DNA of 64,000 nucleotides from Neotamlana sargassicola. GTDB lineage: Bacteria; Bacteroidota; Bacteroidia; Flavobacteriales; Flavobacteriaceae. The DNA lies in NCBI RefSeq assembly GCF_020523965.1, contig NZ_JAJAPX010000002.1:682001-746000 (forward strand), in the 5' to 3' direction. The notes beneath the pieces are model-generated. The model worked only from the letters and a program-made list of their open reading frames with translations. It was not told where the DNA came from and did no database searches. Shown here piece after piece: positions 49,493-57,495 of the stretch. Both the position numbers and the translations under genes were made by a program. Each line of letters opens with the position of its first letter. The first letter of the stretch is position 1.

Positions 49493-50257
49493 TTAACTTA
49501 AAATTGAAGAAACAAACGTATCTATTTCTTTTGCATTTTTTGCGGTTAAATGTTTTACAAAAGCGCTACCTATAATGGCGCCTTTTGCATATTTTGTTGC
49601 CGCTGTAAAGGTGGCGTTGTTACTAATACCAAAACCAACTATTTGCGGGTTTTTTAAGTTTAAACTGTTTATACGCTCAAAATATGCGGTTTGCTCGTCA
49701 CCAAAACCAGATTTTGCACCTGTTGTACTAGCGCTACTAACCATGTAAATAAAACCGTTTGATACGGAATCTATATAACGAATGCGATCATCGCTAGTTT
49801 GTGGTGTTATTAAAAATACGTTCGATAAACCATATTTCTCGAATGTAGATTGATATTTTTCATGGTAAACATCTACCGGTAGATCCGGAATTATGAGTCC
49901 GTCGATGCCTATTTCTTGACATTTTTTACAAAAAGCTTCAACACCATATTGAAACATAGGGTTAAAATACCCCATAATTATTAACGGAATATTTACCGTT
50001 TTTCGGATGTCTTTAAGTTGATTAAAAAGCACCTCGGTGGTCATGCCATTTTTTAAGGCTTGCGTTGAGCTATCTTGAATGGTTGGTCCATCGGCTAGAG
50101 GATCGCTAAACGGAAGACCAATTTCAATCATATCGACACCATTTTTTTCAAGATCTTGTATTATTGAAACTGTATCGTTAAGGCTTGGATATCCTGCCGT
50201 AAAGTATATGGATAGTAACTTTTTGTTTTCTTTTAGTTTTTGATTTATTCTGTTCAT
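49493..50257 (-). CDS. trpA: Tryptophan synthase alpha chain
   Basis: Cleaves indole-3-glycerol phosphate to indole and glyceraldehyde 3-phosphate. 254 residues; the catalytic Glu/Asp are in MIEIGLPFSDPLADGPTIQDS and GLIIPDLPVDVYHEKY. Last gene of the trp operon. It is separated from trpB by the GIY-YIG gene and two palindromes, which is unusual because trpB and trpA are normally adjacent. Confidence 0.95.
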   Translation of the reverse strand: MNRINQKLKENKKLLSIYFTAGYPSLNDTVSIIQDLEKNGVDMIEIGLPFSDPLADGPTIQDSSTQALKNGMTTEVLFNQLKDIRKTVNIPLIIMGYFNPMFQYGVEAFCKKCQEIGIDGLIIPDLPVDVYHEKYQSTFEKYGLSNVFLITPQTSDDRIRYIDSVSNGFIYMVSSASTTGAKSGFGDEQTAYFERINSLNLKNPQIVGFGISNNATFTAATKYAKGAIIGSAFVKHLTAKNAKEIDTFVSSILS

Positions 50258-50301: not shown

Positions 50302-50586
50302 TTATATGTATTCTGAAAGATCTTTCCAATCGGGGTTTAAACTATTTATTAAACTTATTTTCCATGATCTGTTCCATTTTTTTATTTGTCGTTCTCGTTT
50401 TATTGAGTTGTTAACATACTTTGTAGTTTCAAAATAAACGAGTTTTGTTACGTTGTACTTTCCTGTAAAAGTTTTTGGACCATTAGTTTTGTGTTGTTTT
50501 AATCTCAATTTTAACTGCTTCGTTCGTCCTACATATAAAACCGTATGGTTTTTATTAGTTAAAATGTATACATAGTGAACATCCAT
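50302..50586 (-). CDS. Small GIY-YIG nuclease-domain protein
   Basis: A 94-residue protein consisting of one GIY-YIG domain: YVYILTNKN...VLYVGRT (the two Y-x-Y/Y-V-G strands), basic KLRLKQHK with the catalytic Arg region, and the Glu-bearing helix IKRERQIKKWNRSWK. This is the UvrC-N/YhbQ-like single-domain form. It lies inside the trp operon between trpB and trpA and is bracketed by inverted palindromes (50277-50296 and 50597-50616), which suggests an inserted cassette. Activity and target unknown. Confidence 0.88.
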   Translation of the reverse strand: MDVHYVYILTNKNHTVLYVGRTKQLKLRLKQHKTNGPKTFTGKYNVTKLVYFETTKYVNNSIKRERQIKKWNRSWKISLINSLNPDWKDLSEYI

Positions 50587-50629: not shown

Positions 50630-52516
50630 TTATATTTTAAAATACTCAATATAATTATTCAAATCTTTATCGCCACGTCCCGATAAACTAACTACTACAA
50701 TGTCGTCTGGTTTGAACGTTTTTTGCTCGAAAATGGCCAAGGCGTGCGAACTCTCTATAGCTGGAATAATACCTTCTAATTTACAAAGTTCTAAACCGGC
50801 ATTCATGGCTTGGTCGTCGGTAATAGACATAAATTCTGCGCGTCCTGTTTTTGCTAAATGCGCGTGCATTGGGCCAACTCCAGGATAATCTAAGCCTGCT
50901 GAAATAGAGTAGGGCTCTGTTATTTGTCCGTCGTTAGTTTGCATTAACAACGTTTTACAGCCGTGAATAATACCTTCTTTTCCTAATACCGATGTGGCTG
51001 CACTTTCGCCAGAATCTACGCCTAAACCAGCAGCTTCAACAGCTATAATTTTTACATCTTCGTCGTGTAAATAGTGGTAATAGGTTCCTGCTGCATTACT
51101 TCCTCCGCCAATACATGCCACAACATAATCTGGGTTTTCTTTGTTTTCGTGCTCTAATAATTGCCATTTAATTTCTTCTGAAATCACAGCTTGAAAACGG
51201 GTGACCATATCTGGATATGGATGCGGACCAATAGCAGAACCAATAATGTAATGCGTATCTACGGGATTGTTAATCCAATCGCGAATGGCTTCGTTAGTGG
51301 CATCTTTTAAAGTACGACTTCCTGATTTTGCCGGAACTACTGTCGCGCCAAGCATTTTCATACGGGCAACGTTTGGAGCTTGTCGTGCAATGTCAATTTC
51401 GCCCATATACACAATACATTCTAAGCCCATTAATGCACAAACGGTGGCAGTTGCAACACCGTGTTGGCCTGCACCAGTTTCGGCAATTATGCGGTGTTTA
51501 CCTAAGCGTTTTGCCATTAAAATTTGACCAATAGTATTGTTTATTTTATGTGCGCCGGTATGATTTAAATCCTCGCGTTTTAAATAAATTTTGGTGTTGT
51601 ATTTTTCTGAAAGGCGTTTTGCAAAGTATAATGGCGATGGGCGCCCAACATAATCTTTTAAAAGCTGATTGAATTCTTCTTTAAATGAAGGTTCGCTCAT
51701 AACTTCTAAATATTTTTGGCGTAACTCCTCGACGTTTGGATAGAGCATTTCTGGAATGTATGCACCGCCAAATTCGCCGTAATAGCCTTTTTCATCTACA
51801 TTATATAAATTCATGTTTTTATTATTGAGATGGTTTTTGAATGCTTTTAAGGCCGAAACTTTTTTAAGTCCGGGTTCAATTTCAAATTTACTATTTATAT
51901 CGATAGCATAACAGTATTTTGATGCTTCGCTAGTTTTAAATTTATTGATTACATCTACATCGCTTAAGCCAATACCTCCGCTTAAAAAGAAGGGTTTTGT
52001 TGATGGGTAATTGTTTAACAAACTCCAATCGAACTTGTAACCATTACCTCCTGGAAGTTTGCCTTTGGTATCGAACAGAAAATAGTCGCAAACCACTTCG
52101 TAAGGCTCTAATTGATTAAAATTGAAGCTTTCGTTTACAGAAAACACTTTTATAATTTCTACTTTATTTTTTGTAAAAAGTTTTGTCGATTTTAAAATAC
52201 TGCAATAATATGGCGATTCGTGACCGTGAAGTTGTACGGCTTGCAAGTTGTAATCGGTTACAGTTTTAATAATGGTGCTAATTTCGGCATTTACAAAAAC
52301 TCCAGTTTTTTTTATGGTTTCTGGTACATTTGTAATGGTTTTAGCATCGTAATTTCTAGGTGTTTTATCGTAAAATATAAAGCCAAGATAATCGGGTTGA
52401 AGCGAAGCGACTTGCTCGATATTATCTTGGTATTTCATACCACAGATTTTAAGCTTAATAGCAGCGCTATCAGTTTGTTCTGTAGCTTGTTGTGTTATGT
52501 TTGAAGTGTCTTTCAT
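50630..52516 (-). CDS. trpFB: Fused phosphoribosylanthranilate isomerase - tryptophan synthase beta chain (TrpF-TrpB)
   Basis: One 628-residue frame. Residues 20-230 are Trp[30 protein letters not shown] and [12 protein letters not shown]. Residues 235-628 are a complete TrpB, including its own initiator-like Met at 235 (codon 51814-51812), the PLP lysine K324 in [14 protein letters not shown], and [12 protein letters not shown]. The linker is only NNKN. TrpF isomerises phosphoribosylanthranilate; TrpB makes tryptophan from indole and serine. TrpB could also start internally from Met235. A sequencing error that removes a stop between the genes is the alternative. Confidence 0.9.
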
Positions 52517-52557: not shown

Positions 52558-53340
52558 TTAACTTAGGCTTTTAATAAATTCTGTTGCACTTGCACCAGGA
52601 TTATCGGTTTTCATAAAATTTTCTCCTATTAAAAAACCTTGGTAACCGTAGGGTTGTAATTCTTTAATAGCCTCAATATTGCTTATACCACTTTCTGATA
52701 CTTTTACAAAATCGTCTGGAATTATTTTACTTAATGCTTTGCTGGTGTTTAGGCTAACATCGAACGTTTTTAAATTTCGGTTATTAACGCCTAACATATC
52801 TAAACTTGGCATTATGGATTTGTGTAATTCTTCTTCGTTATGAACTTCTAAAAGCACATCTAATTTTAAACTTTTTGCTAATTCTGAAAATTGCTTGATT
52901 TCGTCTCTGGTTAAAATAGCCGCAATGAGTAAAATAACATCGGCGCCGTATGCTTTGGCTTCAAGAATTTGATATTCATCAATAATGAATTCCTTGCGTA
53001 ATAGCGGTAAATTGCAACTGGCTCTTGCCGTTAATAAATCGTCTAGAGAACCACCAAAATATTTTCCATCTGTTAAAACCGACATACCACAAACGCCTGC
53101 TTTTTCGTAACCTGTGGCTACATCTTGAACATTTAAACCGTTATTTATAACAGATTTTGAAGGCGAACGTCGTTTATGCTCGGCGATTATTCCTGATTTA
53201 CTATTTTTTAAATTTTGAGCCAAAGAAGTGGTTGCTCTTGTAAATAAAACAGATTGTTCTAGTTGTGAGATAGGGATTAAGGATTTTCTTAAATCTACTT
53301 CTTTGCGTTTATCTATTACTATTTTGTCTAAAATATTCAT
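52558..53340 (-). CDS. trpC: Indole-3-glycerol phosphate synthase
   Basis: Closes the indole ring in tryptophan synthesis. 260 residues from the ATG at 53340 ([16 protein letters not shown]), with [41 protein letters not shown] and [14 protein letters not shown]. The open frame runs 20 codons further upstream (to 53400), but those codons belong to repeat element A, which also encodes the same short peptide in its copy B, so the internal ATG is preferred. Confidence 0.94.
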
Positions 53341-53358
53341 TTTATTTTTTATTAGTAA

Positions 53359-53552
53359 TTCATTTTTTGCTTGTCCAAAAAACGAATCAAAAAAGGACAT
53401 TCAAGTTGAGGAATTTTTTCTTCAGATTTAATTCTGAAGAAAAACCGATTTGAAAACTCCGCGTCGAACTGCGTTCTCCTGATTTCGGAGCTTTTCTTCA
53501 TCTATTCTGCACCTTGACGATCAATTCTACGAATTGAAAAGGGACTTGAATT
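53359..53552. repeat. Element A: 194-bp foldable repeat in the trpD-trpC gap
   Basis: Shares all but about six bases with element B (54725-54918), and is of the same length. It holds TGTCC/GGACA (53372-53376 with 53395-53399), an outer pair ATTCAAGT/ACTTGAAT (53399-53406, 53544-53551) and several inner hairpins. The 20-mer TTCTAAAATTTTAATCTTTC follows at 53566-53585. With it the 344-bp gap between trpD and trpC is fully explained by repeats. Confidence 0.85.
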
Positions 53553-53582
53553 ATTTCTTGTTCTATTCTAAAATTTTAATCT

Positions 53583-53684: not shown

Positions 53685-54677
53685 CTATTTACTCAATTCA
53701 ATTAATTTATCTAAACTTTGTTTTGCTTTACCAGAAAAAAGCGATTCTTTGGCTAGTTCAAAACCGGCTTTATGTGTAATTTGTTTACTTGTTGCGATGG
53801 CTAATCCTGCATTGGCACAAACCACATTGTTTTGCGCTTCGGTACCTTTTGCTGAAATAATATCGACAAATATGTTTGCAGCATCGGCAATGGTATCGCC
53901 ACCATAAATGGCTTCTTGCTTTATGGTTTTAAGCCCTAATTGTTCTGGTGAAAAAATTGTTTCTGAATGATTGGAAACTATTTTAGCTTTTCCTGTTAGC
54001 GATATTTCATCATAGCCATCAAGAGCAAAAACGATATTGTAATTTTTATCGGTATTTTGATATAAGAAGCTATACAAACGCAACACTTCTAAATTAAAAA
54101 CACCTAATAATTGATTTTTTGGAAATGATGGATTTACCATTGGCCCTAACATGTTAAAAAATGTTTTTACACCTAGTTGTTTTCTAATTGGTGCTACATT
54201 TTTCATGGCAGGGTGGAAGAGTGGTGCATGTAAAATACATATTCCGGCTTGGTCTACGCAGCGTTTTAAAAAATCTTCGTTGTTTGAAAATTTAACACCC
54301 AAATGCTCCATAACATTTGATGAGCCCGATGTTGATGACACGCCGTAATTACCATGCTTTGAAACCTGAACACCAGCACCTGCTGTTATAAAAGATGATA
54401 AAGTTGAAATGTTAAATGTGTTTTTACCATCGCCACCAGTTCCTACAATATCAATGGTATTAAACTCACTTAAATCGATAGGAATGCAAAGTTCTAAAAG
54501 CGCATCTCTAAAGCCTTGCAACTCATTTAAAGTAATGCTTCGCATCATAAAAACCGATAAGAAACATGCAATTTGGCTAGGGTTGTACATATCGTTGGAT
54601 ATGTTTACAATAATTTGTTTTGCCTCTTGTGTGGTGAGGGTTTCGTGGTTTATTAGTCTGTTTAGTATGTCTTTCAT
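53685..54677 (-). CDS. trpD: Anthranilate phosphoribosyltransferase
   Basis: Couples anthranilate to PRPP. 330 residues, the stand-alone form. Seen: IVGTGGDGKNTFNIST (PRPP site), KHGNYGVSSTSGSSNVMEHLG, APLFHPAMKNVAPIRKQLG and FNMLGPMVNP. Flanked on both sides by repeat elements A and B. Confidence 0.95.
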   Translation of the reverse strand: MKDILNRLINHETLTTQEAKQIIVNISNDMYNPSQIACFLSVFMMRSITLNELQGFRDALLELCIPIDLSEFNTIDIVGTGGDGKNTFNISTLSSFITAGAGVQVSKHGNYGVSSTSGSSNVMEHLGVKFSNNEDFLKRCVDQAGICILHAPLFHPAMKNVAPIRKQLGVKTFFNMLGPMVNPSFPKNQLLGVFNLEVLRLYSFLYQNTDKNYNIVFALDGYDEISLTGKAKIVSNHSETIFSPEQLGLKTIKQEAIYGGDTIADAANIFVDIISAKGTEAQNNVVCANAGLAIATSKQITHKAGFELAKESLFSGKAKQSLDKLIELSK

Positions 54678-54724: not shown

Positions 54725-54918
54725 TTCATTTTTTGCTTGTCCAAAAAACGAATCAAAAAAGGACATTCAAGTCGAGGAATTTTTTCTGCAGATTTATGTC
54801 TGAAGAAAAACCGATTTGAAAACTCCGCGTCGAACTGCGTTCTCCTGATTTCGGAGCTTTTCTGCATCTATTCTGCGCCTTGACGATCAATTCTACGAAT
54901 TGAAAAGGGACTTGAATT
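54725..54918. repeat. Element B: 194-bp foldable repeat in the trpG-trpD gap
   Basis: Near-identical partner of element A, in the same orientation relative to the operon. On the minus strand it encodes the short peptide MSFFDSFFGQAKNE and then a stop, as element A does without the stop. The common 20-mer follows at 54953-54972. Confidence 0.85.
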
Positions 54919-54969
54919 TTTTCAATTTTTGTTTCTTTTATTTCTTGTTCTATTCTAAAATTTTAATCT

Positions 54970-55020: not shown

Positions 55021-55587
55021 CTAATGATTCACCCAGTTTTCTAATATTTTTTTTCCGTCTGGTGTTAAAACCGATTCGGGGTGGTATTGCACACCGCGAA
55101 CATCGAACGTTTTATGGCGTAAAGACATGATTTGTCCGTTTTCATCAAACGATGTTGCTTCTAAACTTTCTGGTAAATTAGCATTTACAACCCATGAGTG
55201 GTAACGGCCAACTTCAATGTTTTTATTTAAACCTTCAAAAATATATTCATCATCAACGCTTAAAGTTACGTTGGTTGCCACGCCATGGTAAACATCGTCT
55301 AAATTTTCTAAAGAACCTCCAAATACTTCACCAATAGCTTGTTGCCCTAAACACACACCAAAAATACTTTTTGTTGCTGCATATTTTTCAATAATAGCTT
55401 TTAAAAGGCCTGCTTCGTCTGGAATTCCTGGTCCTGGAGATAAAACAATTTTATCGAATGGTTCAACATCTTCTAATTGTAATTTATCGTTTCTAACTAC
55501 AGTAACTTCGCAGTTTAAATCTTCTAAATAATGTACAAGATTGTATGTGAAACTGTCGTAATTGTCTATAACTAATATTTTTTTCAT
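55021..55587 (-). CDS. trpG: Anthranilate synthase component II (glutamine amidotransferase)
   Basis: Supplies ammonia from glutamine to TrpE. 188 residues, class I amidotransferase: LVIDNYDSFTYNLVHYL, LSPGPGIPDEAG, nucleophile C79 in GVCLGQQAIGEVFGG, and the His-Glu pair in VQYHPESVLTP. In other bacteria the same subunit can also serve p-aminobenzoate synthase. Position 2 of the operon, after trpE. Confidence 0.93.
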   Translation of the reverse strand: MKKILVIDNYDSFTYNLVHYLEDLNCEVTVVRNDKLQLEDVEPFDKIVLSPGPGIPDEAGLLKAIIEKYAATKSIFGVCLGQQAIGEVFGGSLENLDDVYHGVATNVTLSVDDEYIFEGLNKNIEVGRYHSWVVNANLPESLEATSFDENGQIMSLRHKTFDVRGVQYHPESVLTPDGKKILENWVNH

Positions 55588-55872: not shown

Positions 55873-57279
55873 TTATATTTCCTCAGCCACTTTAATAGCT
55901 TTTTTAAGCGCACCTAGTTTGTTGTAAACTTCTTGCATTTCACTTTCTTCATCCGATTTAGAAACCATTCCTGCTCCGGCTTGCCAGTTTAATTTGTAAT
56001 CTTTACTTAAAAAGGTGCGAATCATTATGGCGTGGTTAAAGTTTCCTTCAAAATCCATAAAACCAATGGCGCCGCCGTAATAGCCACGGCTTGTTTTTTC
56101 GTATTTTTCAATAAGTTGCATAGCCATGTGTTTTGGAGCTCCACTTAAAGTTCCTGCAGGAAAGGTGTCGGCAACGACCTGCATTGTAGAAGTCGTGTCA
56201 TGTTTTTTACCAATTACTTTACTTACTAAATGGATAACATGCGAGAAAAATTGAACTTCACGATATGTTTCTACATTTACGTTGTTTCCATGTCGGCTTA
56301 AATCGTTTCGAGCTAAATCGACAAGCATAACGTGTTCGGCATTTTCTTTGTCATCGTTTTTTAGCTTTTCTGCTAAAATTTCGTCTTGCTCTTCATCGCC
56401 TGTGCGTTTAAAAGTTCCTGCAATAGGATGAATTTCGGCTAAACCATTACTTACAATAAGTTGCGCTTCTGGCGAGCTACCAAATATTTTAAAATCGCCA
56501 TAATCGAAATAAAATAAATAGGGCGATGGATTTATACTTCGTAAGGCACGATACACATTAAAATCGTCTCCAGTAAATTCTTGGGAAAAACGGCGCGATA
56601 ATACTAATTGAAACACATCACCGCGTTGGCAATGTTTTTTAGCTAGTTTAACTTGTTCTTTAAACTCGTCGTCGGTTAAATTAGATTCAATTTCATTTTT
56701 GGCATTAAACTTATACGACGCAAAGTTTTGTACGTTTATAAGTTTATCTATTTCATGAATATTGTTTTCTGAACCTTCTGGACAATGCGCAAAAATATAA
56801 GCTTCATTTTTAAAATGATTTATGGCTATTATATTTTTATAAACCGCATAATACATGTCTGGAATGGTAACCGAATCGTCTTTTTTGCTAATATTGATAT
56901 CTTCAAAATAACGAACAGCATCATAAGCTGTGTAGCCAAAAATGCCGTTGTTTATAAACTTGAAATCTTCTTCAGATTCTACATCAAATTTTTGGGTAAA
57001 ATTGTAAATTTCATCTACAACATTAACTTTATCTGTAATATTAACCGCGCTAGAACTACCATCTGGAAACGTTTCGCTTATAACTTCGTTTTCAACTTTA
57101 ATTGATGCAATTGGGTTAAAACAGATATACGAGAAATTCTTGTGATTACGGTGATAATCGCCACTTTCAAGCAAAATACTATTTGGGTATTTGTCACGAA
57201 TTTTATAGTAAACCGTAACCGGTGTAATGGTATCGGTTAATATTTTTTTGTAATGTGTATGTAATTTGTGTTGTTTCAT
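55873..57279 (-). CDS. trpE: Anthranilate synthase component I
   Basis: Makes anthranilate from chorismate with ammonia from TrpG; feedback-inhibited by tryptophan in known members. 468 residues. Seen: the N-terminal LLESGDYHRNHKNFSYIC (tryptophan-site region LLES), FQLVLSRRFSQEF, INPSPYLFYFDYGDFKIFGSSPE, HPIAGTFKRTGDEEQDE, LVDLARNDLSRHG and FPAGTLSGAPKHMAMQ. First structural gene of the operon, downstream of the attenuator. Confidence 0.95.
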   Translation of the reverse strand: MKQHKLHTHYKKILTDTITPVTVYYKIRDKYPNSILLESGDYHRNHKNFSYICFNPIASIKVENEVISETFPDGSSSAVNITDKVNVVDEIYNFTQKFDVESEEDFKFINNGIFGYTAYDAVRYFEDINISKKDDSVTIPDMYYAVYKNIIAINHFKNEAYIFAHCPEGSENNIHEIDKLINVQNFASYKFNAKNEIESNLTDDEFKEQVKLAKKHCQRGDVFQLVLSRRFSQEFTGDDFNVYRALRSINPSPYLFYFDYGDFKIFGSSPEAQLIVSNGLAEIHPIAGTFKRTGDEEQDEILAEKLKNDDKENAEHVMLVDLARNDLSRHGNNVNVETYREVQFFSHVIHLVSKVIGKKHDTTSTMQVVADTFPAGTLSGAPKHMAMQLIEKYEKTSRGYYGGAIGFMDFEGNFNHAIMIRTFLSKDYKLNWQAGAGMVSKSDEESEMQEVYNKLGALKKAIKVAEEI

Positions 57280-57320: not shown

Positions 57321-57352
57321 AAAAAAGGCCTGTCGTGAATGACAAGCCTTTT
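57321..57352 (-). terminator. trp attenuator terminator
   Basis: On the transcribed minus strand: AAAAGGCTTGTC, loop ATTCAC, GACAGGCC then six T's; one G-U pair in an otherwise perfect stem. It lies between the leader peptide and trpE. The 7-mer TCGTGAA upstream (57387-57393) is complementary to its loop and the first two bases of the 3' arm, so it could open the stem. Confidence 0.85.
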
Positions 57353-57396
57353 ATGATATTTTAAATTAAATATACGAGGAATTTGCTTCACGAACG

Positions 57397-57444
57397 TTAG
57401 TTACGTAAACACCACCACCAAGTATTATTTAATGAATTTTTCAT
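57397..57444 (-). CDS. trpL: trp leader peptide (MKNSLNNTWWWCLRN)
   Basis: A 15-codon ORF starting at 57444 with three consecutive TGG codons at residues 9-11 and a TAA stop, 117 bp upstream of trpE. Its start is about 20 bp from a good promoter, and a terminator follows. This is the classic form of a tryptophan attenuation leader. Ribosomes stalled at the Trp codons would leave the antiterminator at 57387-57393 free; ribosomes reaching the stop would cover it. Confidence 0.85.
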   Translation of the reverse strand: MKNSLNNTWWWCLRN

Positions 57445-57463
57445 TGTTTTGTTTTTGTTGCAT

Positions 57464-57495
57464 CAAAGATAAAAATGAAAATACTATTACCCAAA
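57464..57495 (-). promoter_or_regulatory. Promoter of the trp operon (TTTG-N20-TATCTTTG)
   Basis: On the minus strand the -33 box TTTG (57495-57492) is followed after exactly 20 bp by the -7 box TATCTTTG (57471-57464). Spacing and sequence equal the ferredoxin promoter. The leader-peptide ATG is 19 bp past the -7 box. Confidence 0.75.

Follow-up and report, generated by a model that had tools for sequence, protein, structure and literature searches.

The DNA ahead of trpE in Neotamlana sargassicola very probably holds an attenuator of the Bacteroid-trp (RF01692) kind, in which the ribosome controls transcription of the trp operon through three competing helices. It lies on the minus strand of the 64,000-nucleotide stretch that was analysed, here called the window. 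Its sequence elements, their conservation and a pairing that exceeds shuffled and swapped controls are observed in relatives. A tryptophan attenuator had been predicted at this place from the letters alone (the original prediction). The elements, the run of Trp codons (WWW) and the compensatory pairing support that reading, but the RNA belongs to a known Rfam family and the attenuator reading is largely in print. A 1:2 helix, the loop/3′-arm register of the antiterminator and the difference in this register between families go beyond the original prediction, and the register seems to be new.

The genes downstream of the attenuator, all on the minus strand, run trpE-trpG-trpD-trpC-trpFB-trpA, with 41 nt between the terminator and the trpE start. 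The product of trpE (55873-57279) carries the Pfam domains Anth_synt_I_N and Chorismate_bind, and its two closest relatives, at 98% identity, are from Tamlana, a genus of the Flavobacteriaceae. The names of trpG (55021-55587; GATase) and trpD (53685-54677; Glycos_transf_3 and Glycos_trans_3N) are inferred from their place. These are followed by trpC (52558-53400; IGPS), a trpF-trpB fusion in a single ORF (50630-52516; PRAI at 23-226, PALP at 291-613) and trpA (49493-50257; Trp_syntA). A 178-nt repeat is present in two copies, 96% identical, in the trpD-trpC gap (53380-53557) and the trpG-trpD gap (54746-54923), with short CTTCTAA/CTTCAAA-like repeats strung together after each copy; a different contig of the genome carries a third copy (89%). 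A small GIY-YIG ORF (50302-50586) sits within the operon between trpFB and trpA.

The promoter, TTTG-N20-TATCTTTG (57464-57495, minus strand), is of what we take to be the Bacteroidota type, and it is identified from its sequence and its conservation in relatives. The element TANNTTTG occurs in the 60 nt before the leader start in 150 of 153 relatives, whereas a control stretch lying 200-260 nt upstream contains it in 6 of the 153, and TTTG stands 18-22 nt ahead of TANNTTTG in 91 of the 153. In the family loci the spacing between the first base of TANNTTTG and the leader start codon has two peaks, at about 13 and about 26 nt; the short-distance group (about 13 nt) would make a nearly leaderless transcript.

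The leader ORF encodes MKNSLNNTWWWCLRN, 15 residues (57397-57444, minus strand), and was the sole short ORF with WWW found in a scan of the window. Its three tandem Trp codons, TGG TGG TGG (57412-57420, minus strand), are the putative sensor, as the sequence and the folding snapshots described below suggest. The conservation expected of these codons was borne out: the longest Trp run is 3 in 150 of the 153 parsed relatives and 2 in the other 3. Leader peptides range from 13 to 20 residues, and the first TGG lies 26-28 nt from the TCGTGA core in 152/153. At 78 of 141 loci the TGA inside TCGTGA doubles as the leader stop codon; in the window TCGTGAA begins three bases past the leader TAA.

Membership in the Bacteroid-trp family was assigned by cmscan, which matched 57464-57341 to RF01692 with 61.1 bits (cut-off 49); the locus also lies before trp genes in a member of the Bacteroidota and has a leader ORF with Trp codons. 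Among the 18 Rfam matches at E up to 10 there was no Trp_leader model and no T-box family. The RF01692 model ends at the terminator 5′ arm, leaving the terminator hairpin and the loop/3′-arm pairing outside it. In the genus, 4 of 4 genomes, including this one, have RF01692 with all elements kept, one with a G-U in the antiterminator helix H23. In the same family, matches were found in 208 of 299 genomes at E up to 0.001, 184 of them over the cut-off. At E up to 0.01 there were 19 in a class sample of 247 (7 of these from the same family) and 35 in a phylum sample of 296 (29 from the same family). Of 155 family loci, 153 were parsed (L132 and L154 were not). An earlier parse had left 11 of 169 loci unparsed: five with GTG or TTG starts, three with short T tails, L132 and L068, which by eye have another shape, and L154. 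L039 was dropped as a duplicate of L001.

The distribution is wider than the matches to the RNA model. In 91 family genomes RF01692 had no match; 20 of these were examined, and 14 had trpE (E below 1e-130). Judged by eye, 12 of the 14 loci have a WW leader and a terminator, one runs into a contig edge and one has neither. In one 1.6 Mb genome (91% complete; L183) trpE is present, and no leader or terminator was seen before it. In other families, trpE was matched at E up to 1e-60 in 23 of 36 genomes (35 without an RF01692 match and one with a weak one). These gave 24 trpE loci; 21 have a WW leader and a terminator, and three have, by eye, WRW, WLW or a single W. Thus trp attenuators in Bacteroidota extend beyond RF01692 matches. 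A further set was anchored on TrpE, with the RNA model unused. In these 80 loci, which come from near relatives (73-98% identity) and partly from the same genomes as the RF01692 set, a WWW leader with a terminator recurs in 79, and a perfect spacer-apex complement of at least 6 nt in 73. The sole exception, L315, has other DNA there and no leader in view; by eye this DNA has the apparent end of an ORF similar to the GIY-YIG ORF, and the leader looks as if it had been displaced by an insertion. In a search of the own genome for a His leader of the same design, 15 of the 30 places fitting the pattern were inspected, and none of the 15 had a terminator behind a short ORF.

The positions and letters originally given for the promoter, leader, Trp codons, 7-mer and terminator match the DNA base for base. 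The intrinsic terminator (57321-57352, minus strand), recognized from sequence and folding, consists of the hairpin H34 and a U tract. It has a 12-pair stem, the loop ATTCAC and a TTTTTT tail, and 57356-57318 folds at -17.0 kcal/mol (z -7.55). A generic terminator scan did not list 57352-57321; the probable reason is that most of the T run is part of the stem. The antiterminator strand, or segment 2, is TCGTGAA (57387-57393, minus strand). Its target in H23, segment 3 (57333-57339, minus strand), is TTCACGA, made up of the terminator loop and the first two bases of the 3′ arm, and the two are, as had been claimed, exact complements. In 20000 shuffled spacers a perfect match between spacer and apex reached 7 nt in 0.97% and 6 nt in 2.5%. 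The 7-nt match by itself is suggestive, and it appears solid through its conservation: TCGTGA is present in 144 of 153 relatives, and the complement is kept in diverged loci.

The covariation anticipated for TCGTGAA and TTCACGA was found in part. Compensatory changes are present in diverged relatives, but in the own family the core is near invariant, which leaves flanking positions and a few outliers as the source of covariation. Compensated pairs include TCGCAA:TTGCGA (L134, L169), TCGTAAGG:CTTTACGG, TCGTGAC:GTCACGA (L167) and TCGCGA:TCGCGA (L178); more diverged ones are GCGATGA:TCATCGC, GGATTCAG:CTGAATCC (L182), GAACAGC:GCTGTTC (L048, L198) and CGGGGTTC:GAACCCCG (L204). In 43 diverged loci, several of which share a genus and are therefore not independent, the strands of the same locus scored 13.87 on a custom pair score (not kcal), compared to 10.30 for swapped strands (sd 0.37, maximum 11.75; 0/5000 permutations). 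The best duplex was weak or not the expected one in L033, L174, L179 and L206. This set is what remained of 47 loci when four were not parsed (L050, L068, L180, L197); L173 (contig edge), L183 (no leader) and L190 and L211 (no WW) had been excluded before. Within the family the corresponding values were -9.94 and -9.72 kcal/mol (sd 0.037; 0/5000; 88 distinct combinations), a small difference because the core hardly varies. The seventh base of the 7-mer and its loop base form a Watson-Crick pair in 70 of 141 loci (64 A:T, 5 T:A, 1 C:G), and covariation at this position was rejected, the association being clade-dependent and the tree-based contrasts flat. Terminator and antiterminator alternatives with compensatory change are what is expected of a ribosome-mediated trp attenuator.

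These comparisons bear on two simpler explanations. The terminator is strong alone, and a 7-nt match arises by chance in about 1% of shuffled spacers, as would suit a plain terminator beside a chance Trp-rich ORF with no regulation. Such a coincidence is exceedingly improbable, since the WWW leader, the spacing and the complement recur in the TrpE-anchored relatives (79/80) and diverged loci have the same design in other letters; the 43-locus permutation test and the TrpE-anchored set led us to reject it. The near-invariance of the core in the family (144/153) could also be read as the mark of a trans-acting factor, protein or small RNA, that recognizes TCGTGA/TCACGA, with the Trp codons secondary. 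That both strands change together in diverged loci, and that the Trp codons keep a fixed distance from the core, makes recognition by such a factor very unlikely.

The original prediction described a very compact layout with no separate pause hairpin visible. On this point it has to be revised: an upstream hairpin with the 7-mer inside it is seen in the MFE fold, in the RF01692 structure line and in the relatives. With this 1:2-type hairpin, formed by an outer helix P1 and a helix between leader and 7-mer, the arrangement becomes the usual three-helix attenuator. An attenuator lacking the upstream hairpin was rejected on the folds, the structure line and the duplex and closing-pair tests given below. 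P1 (57365-57433, minus strand) pairs 57433-57418 with 57379-57365 in the MFE fold and the structure line, enclosing the Trp codons and the 7-mer. It is present, with modest covariation, in the consensus fold of the CGA class of loci (60 rows), and was not recovered in that of the TTACG class (68 rows). The energy of the upstream hairpin is unexceptional (57455-57341, z -0.72, with 45 of 200 shuffles as good).

Inside P1, the leader codons after Trp supply segment 1, TTTACG (57404-57409, minus strand), which pairs with CGTGAA (57392-57387) to form H12 and hide the 7-mer; CTTACG:CGTGAG and ATTACG:CGTGAT are found in other loci. The RF01692 inner helix differs from H12 in register, by our own reading of the structure line. 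Duplexes within a locus are more stable than swapped ones (-6.59 vs -5.36 kcal/mol, sd 0.12; 0/5000; 127 combinations). The closing pair could be tabulated in 73 of 145 loci, the other 72 being without an NTTACG arm (mostly of the CGAA type) or without the core. It is C:G in 36, T:A in 20, A:T in 4, T:G in 4 and unpaired in 9, and in 6 of these 9 the motif lies just 2-3 nt before the core and cannot be H12. The 60 Watson-Crick pairs in 73 compare to a mean of 33.5 and a maximum of 49 in 20000 shuffles. The consensus fold of the TTACG class finds H12 unaided, with the closing pair in 62 of 68 rows (shuffle mean 45.2, maximum 52). Many other loci are of the CGAA:TTCG type, for which the consensus fold gives a related helix inside P1. 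Counting the core as hidden if paired anywhere from the first Trp codon to the core itself, folding of the 153 relatives with no ribosome predicts pairing with the leader above 0.5 in 152, vs 299 of 765 shuffled leader segments.

Shared ancestry inflates the plain shuffles, as a sign test on an 84-row TrpE tree indicates; an earlier tree from short TrpE pieces was too weak. Of 7 contrasts for the closing pair, 4 were concordant, 1 was opposite and 2 showed no difference in most pairings (median p 0.375). On the tree, one side needs a minimum of 10 changes, the other 9, and both taken jointly 12. The H12 association is present in the data, and its independence across the tree appears only as a trend. 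A hairpin of the 1:2 type that hides the antiterminator strand is thus found, with a tree sign test that is not significant.

How these helices might work together was modelled by folding snapshots of the emerging RNA, from which we infer the ribosome positions, the kinetics and the response to tryptophan. The footprints were assumed to be 15 nt either way of the P-site for the ribosome and about 14 nt for the polymerase. With no ribosome on the window RNA, H12 is predicted at 0.91. With Trp2 or Trp3 in the A site it falls to about 0, and H23 rises to 0.68, 0.81 and 0.93-0.95 when the RNA has emerged to 57335, 57334 and 57333-57330, respectively. With Trp1 in the A site H12 is partly broken, at 0.52-0.61 until the loop emerges, and H23 later reaches 0.62-0.95. 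A ribosome at the stop codon leaves neither H12 nor H23. The proposal that a ribosome finishing the leader peptide covers the 7-mer is upheld by the folding model in the window and in the relatives: a Trp2/Trp3 stall brings H23 above 0.5 in 151 of the 153, a ribosome at the stop codon in just 1.

In the full-length RNA the terminator stands at 0.95-0.96 in every modelled ribosome state. Antitermination at equilibrium was accordingly rejected, which leaves only a kinetic mechanism. If the polymerase encloses 14 nt, it stands at 57321, the end of the U tract, when the RNA has emerged as far as 57335, so H23 could form at the decision point and hardly earlier. Terminator and antiterminator would be mutually exclusive, judging from their overlap and the folds. 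With no stalled ribosome, the 7-mer would be held in H12, inside P1, by the leader codons after Trp, and the terminator would form. Under a shortage of Trp-tRNA, the ribosome would stall at the second or third Trp codon, covering the leader half of H12 and freeing the 7-mer, which would capture the terminator loop and the first two 3′-arm bases as they exit the polymerase, allowing readthrough into trpE. With ample Trp, the ribosome would move on to the stop codon and cover the 7-mer, and termination would follow. The no-ribosome model also passes through a brief state that favors H23 (0.88-0.90 at 57333-57332) before H34, so that in the model an untranslated leader does not terminate cleanly.

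The strongest contiguous duplex of the antiterminator strand falls on the loop and 3′ arm in 146 of the 153 family loci, on the 5′ arm and loop in 3, on all three in 3 and on the 3′ arm alone in 1. Eleven further family loci, not matched by RF01692, are mixed (loop and 3′ arm 5, all three 3, and one each on the 5′ arm, the 5′ arm with loop, and the 3′ arm), so the register varies even within the family. Among 32 loci from other families, the counts are 16 for the 5′ arm and loop, 6 for the 5′ arm, 8 for the loop and 3′ arm and 2 for all three. L043, L069 and L162, of the GTGAGA:TCTCAC type, are shifted by a few bases and look intermediate. In L207, from another family (f63), CTTGCCGGGT complements one loop base and nine 3′-arm bases, the extreme of the register series.

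These registers also bear on a rival form of H23, in which the key antiterminator is a longer pairing that includes the 5′ arm (GCAA, 57386-57383, with TTGT) and the loop/3′-arm match is merely its tip. The fold of 57405-57332 does extend TCGTGAAGCAA onto both TTGT and TTCACGA, and in 22 of the 32 other-family loci the strongest duplex lies on the 5′ arm, alone or with the loop. This longer pairing is nevertheless unlikely to be the key one here, given the predominance of loop plus 3′ arm in the family (146/153), and the GCAA:TTGT extension may matter all the same. For the preferred loop/3′-arm pairing, there is about an even chance that two things hold together: that the Flavobacteriaceae trp antiterminator works by timed capture of the loop and first 3′-arm bases, emerging as the U tract is made, and that the pairing slid along one homologous terminator, over 5′ arm, loop and 3′ arm, in the evolution of Bacteroidota, with sensor and logic unchanged. 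The timing of loop capture is that given by a 14-nt polymerase footprint. If the register really slid, these loci would form a natural series in which to follow how a co-transcriptional switch can shift its pairing without losing its function. They also suggest that invasion of the 5′ arm is not a requirement for an antiterminator.

The Bacteroid-trp motif was tabulated with a "y" for RNA and for cis-regulation (Weinberg, 2010; PMC2864571). The window locus resembles that motif in its occurrence in Bacteroidota, upstream of trp genes, with Trp codons inside the motif. A passage in PMC6414381 describes Bacteroid-Trp RNA as structured similarly to the E. coli leader and conserved before trp in Flavobacterium psychrophilum, so the basic attenuator reading is already in print; that passage does not give the anatomy of the pairing. 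In the parts of the literature searched, including PMC2864571, PMC4833913 and PMC6414381, no description of the loop/3′-arm pairing was found; the supplements of PMC2864571 or the comparative study of Lopatovskaya et al. (2010) could contain one. Compared to the Rfam RF01692 model, the window locus adds the terminator hairpin and the antiterminator on its loop and 3′ arm, beyond the model end, and thereby the full three-helix anatomy of a family that Rfam models only in part.

The other natural comparison is with the trp attenuator of E. coli, presumably the proteobacterial Trp_leader of Rfam (RF00513). The familiar anatomy of that attenuator is shared: a leader peptide with Trp codons, alternative 1:2, 2:3 and 3:4 pairings and a terminator with a U tract. 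The E. coli antiterminator is formed by segment 2 and the terminator 5′ arm. The window differs from this form: apart from a weak 5′-arm extension, segment 2 here finds its partner in the loop and the first bases of the 3′ arm.
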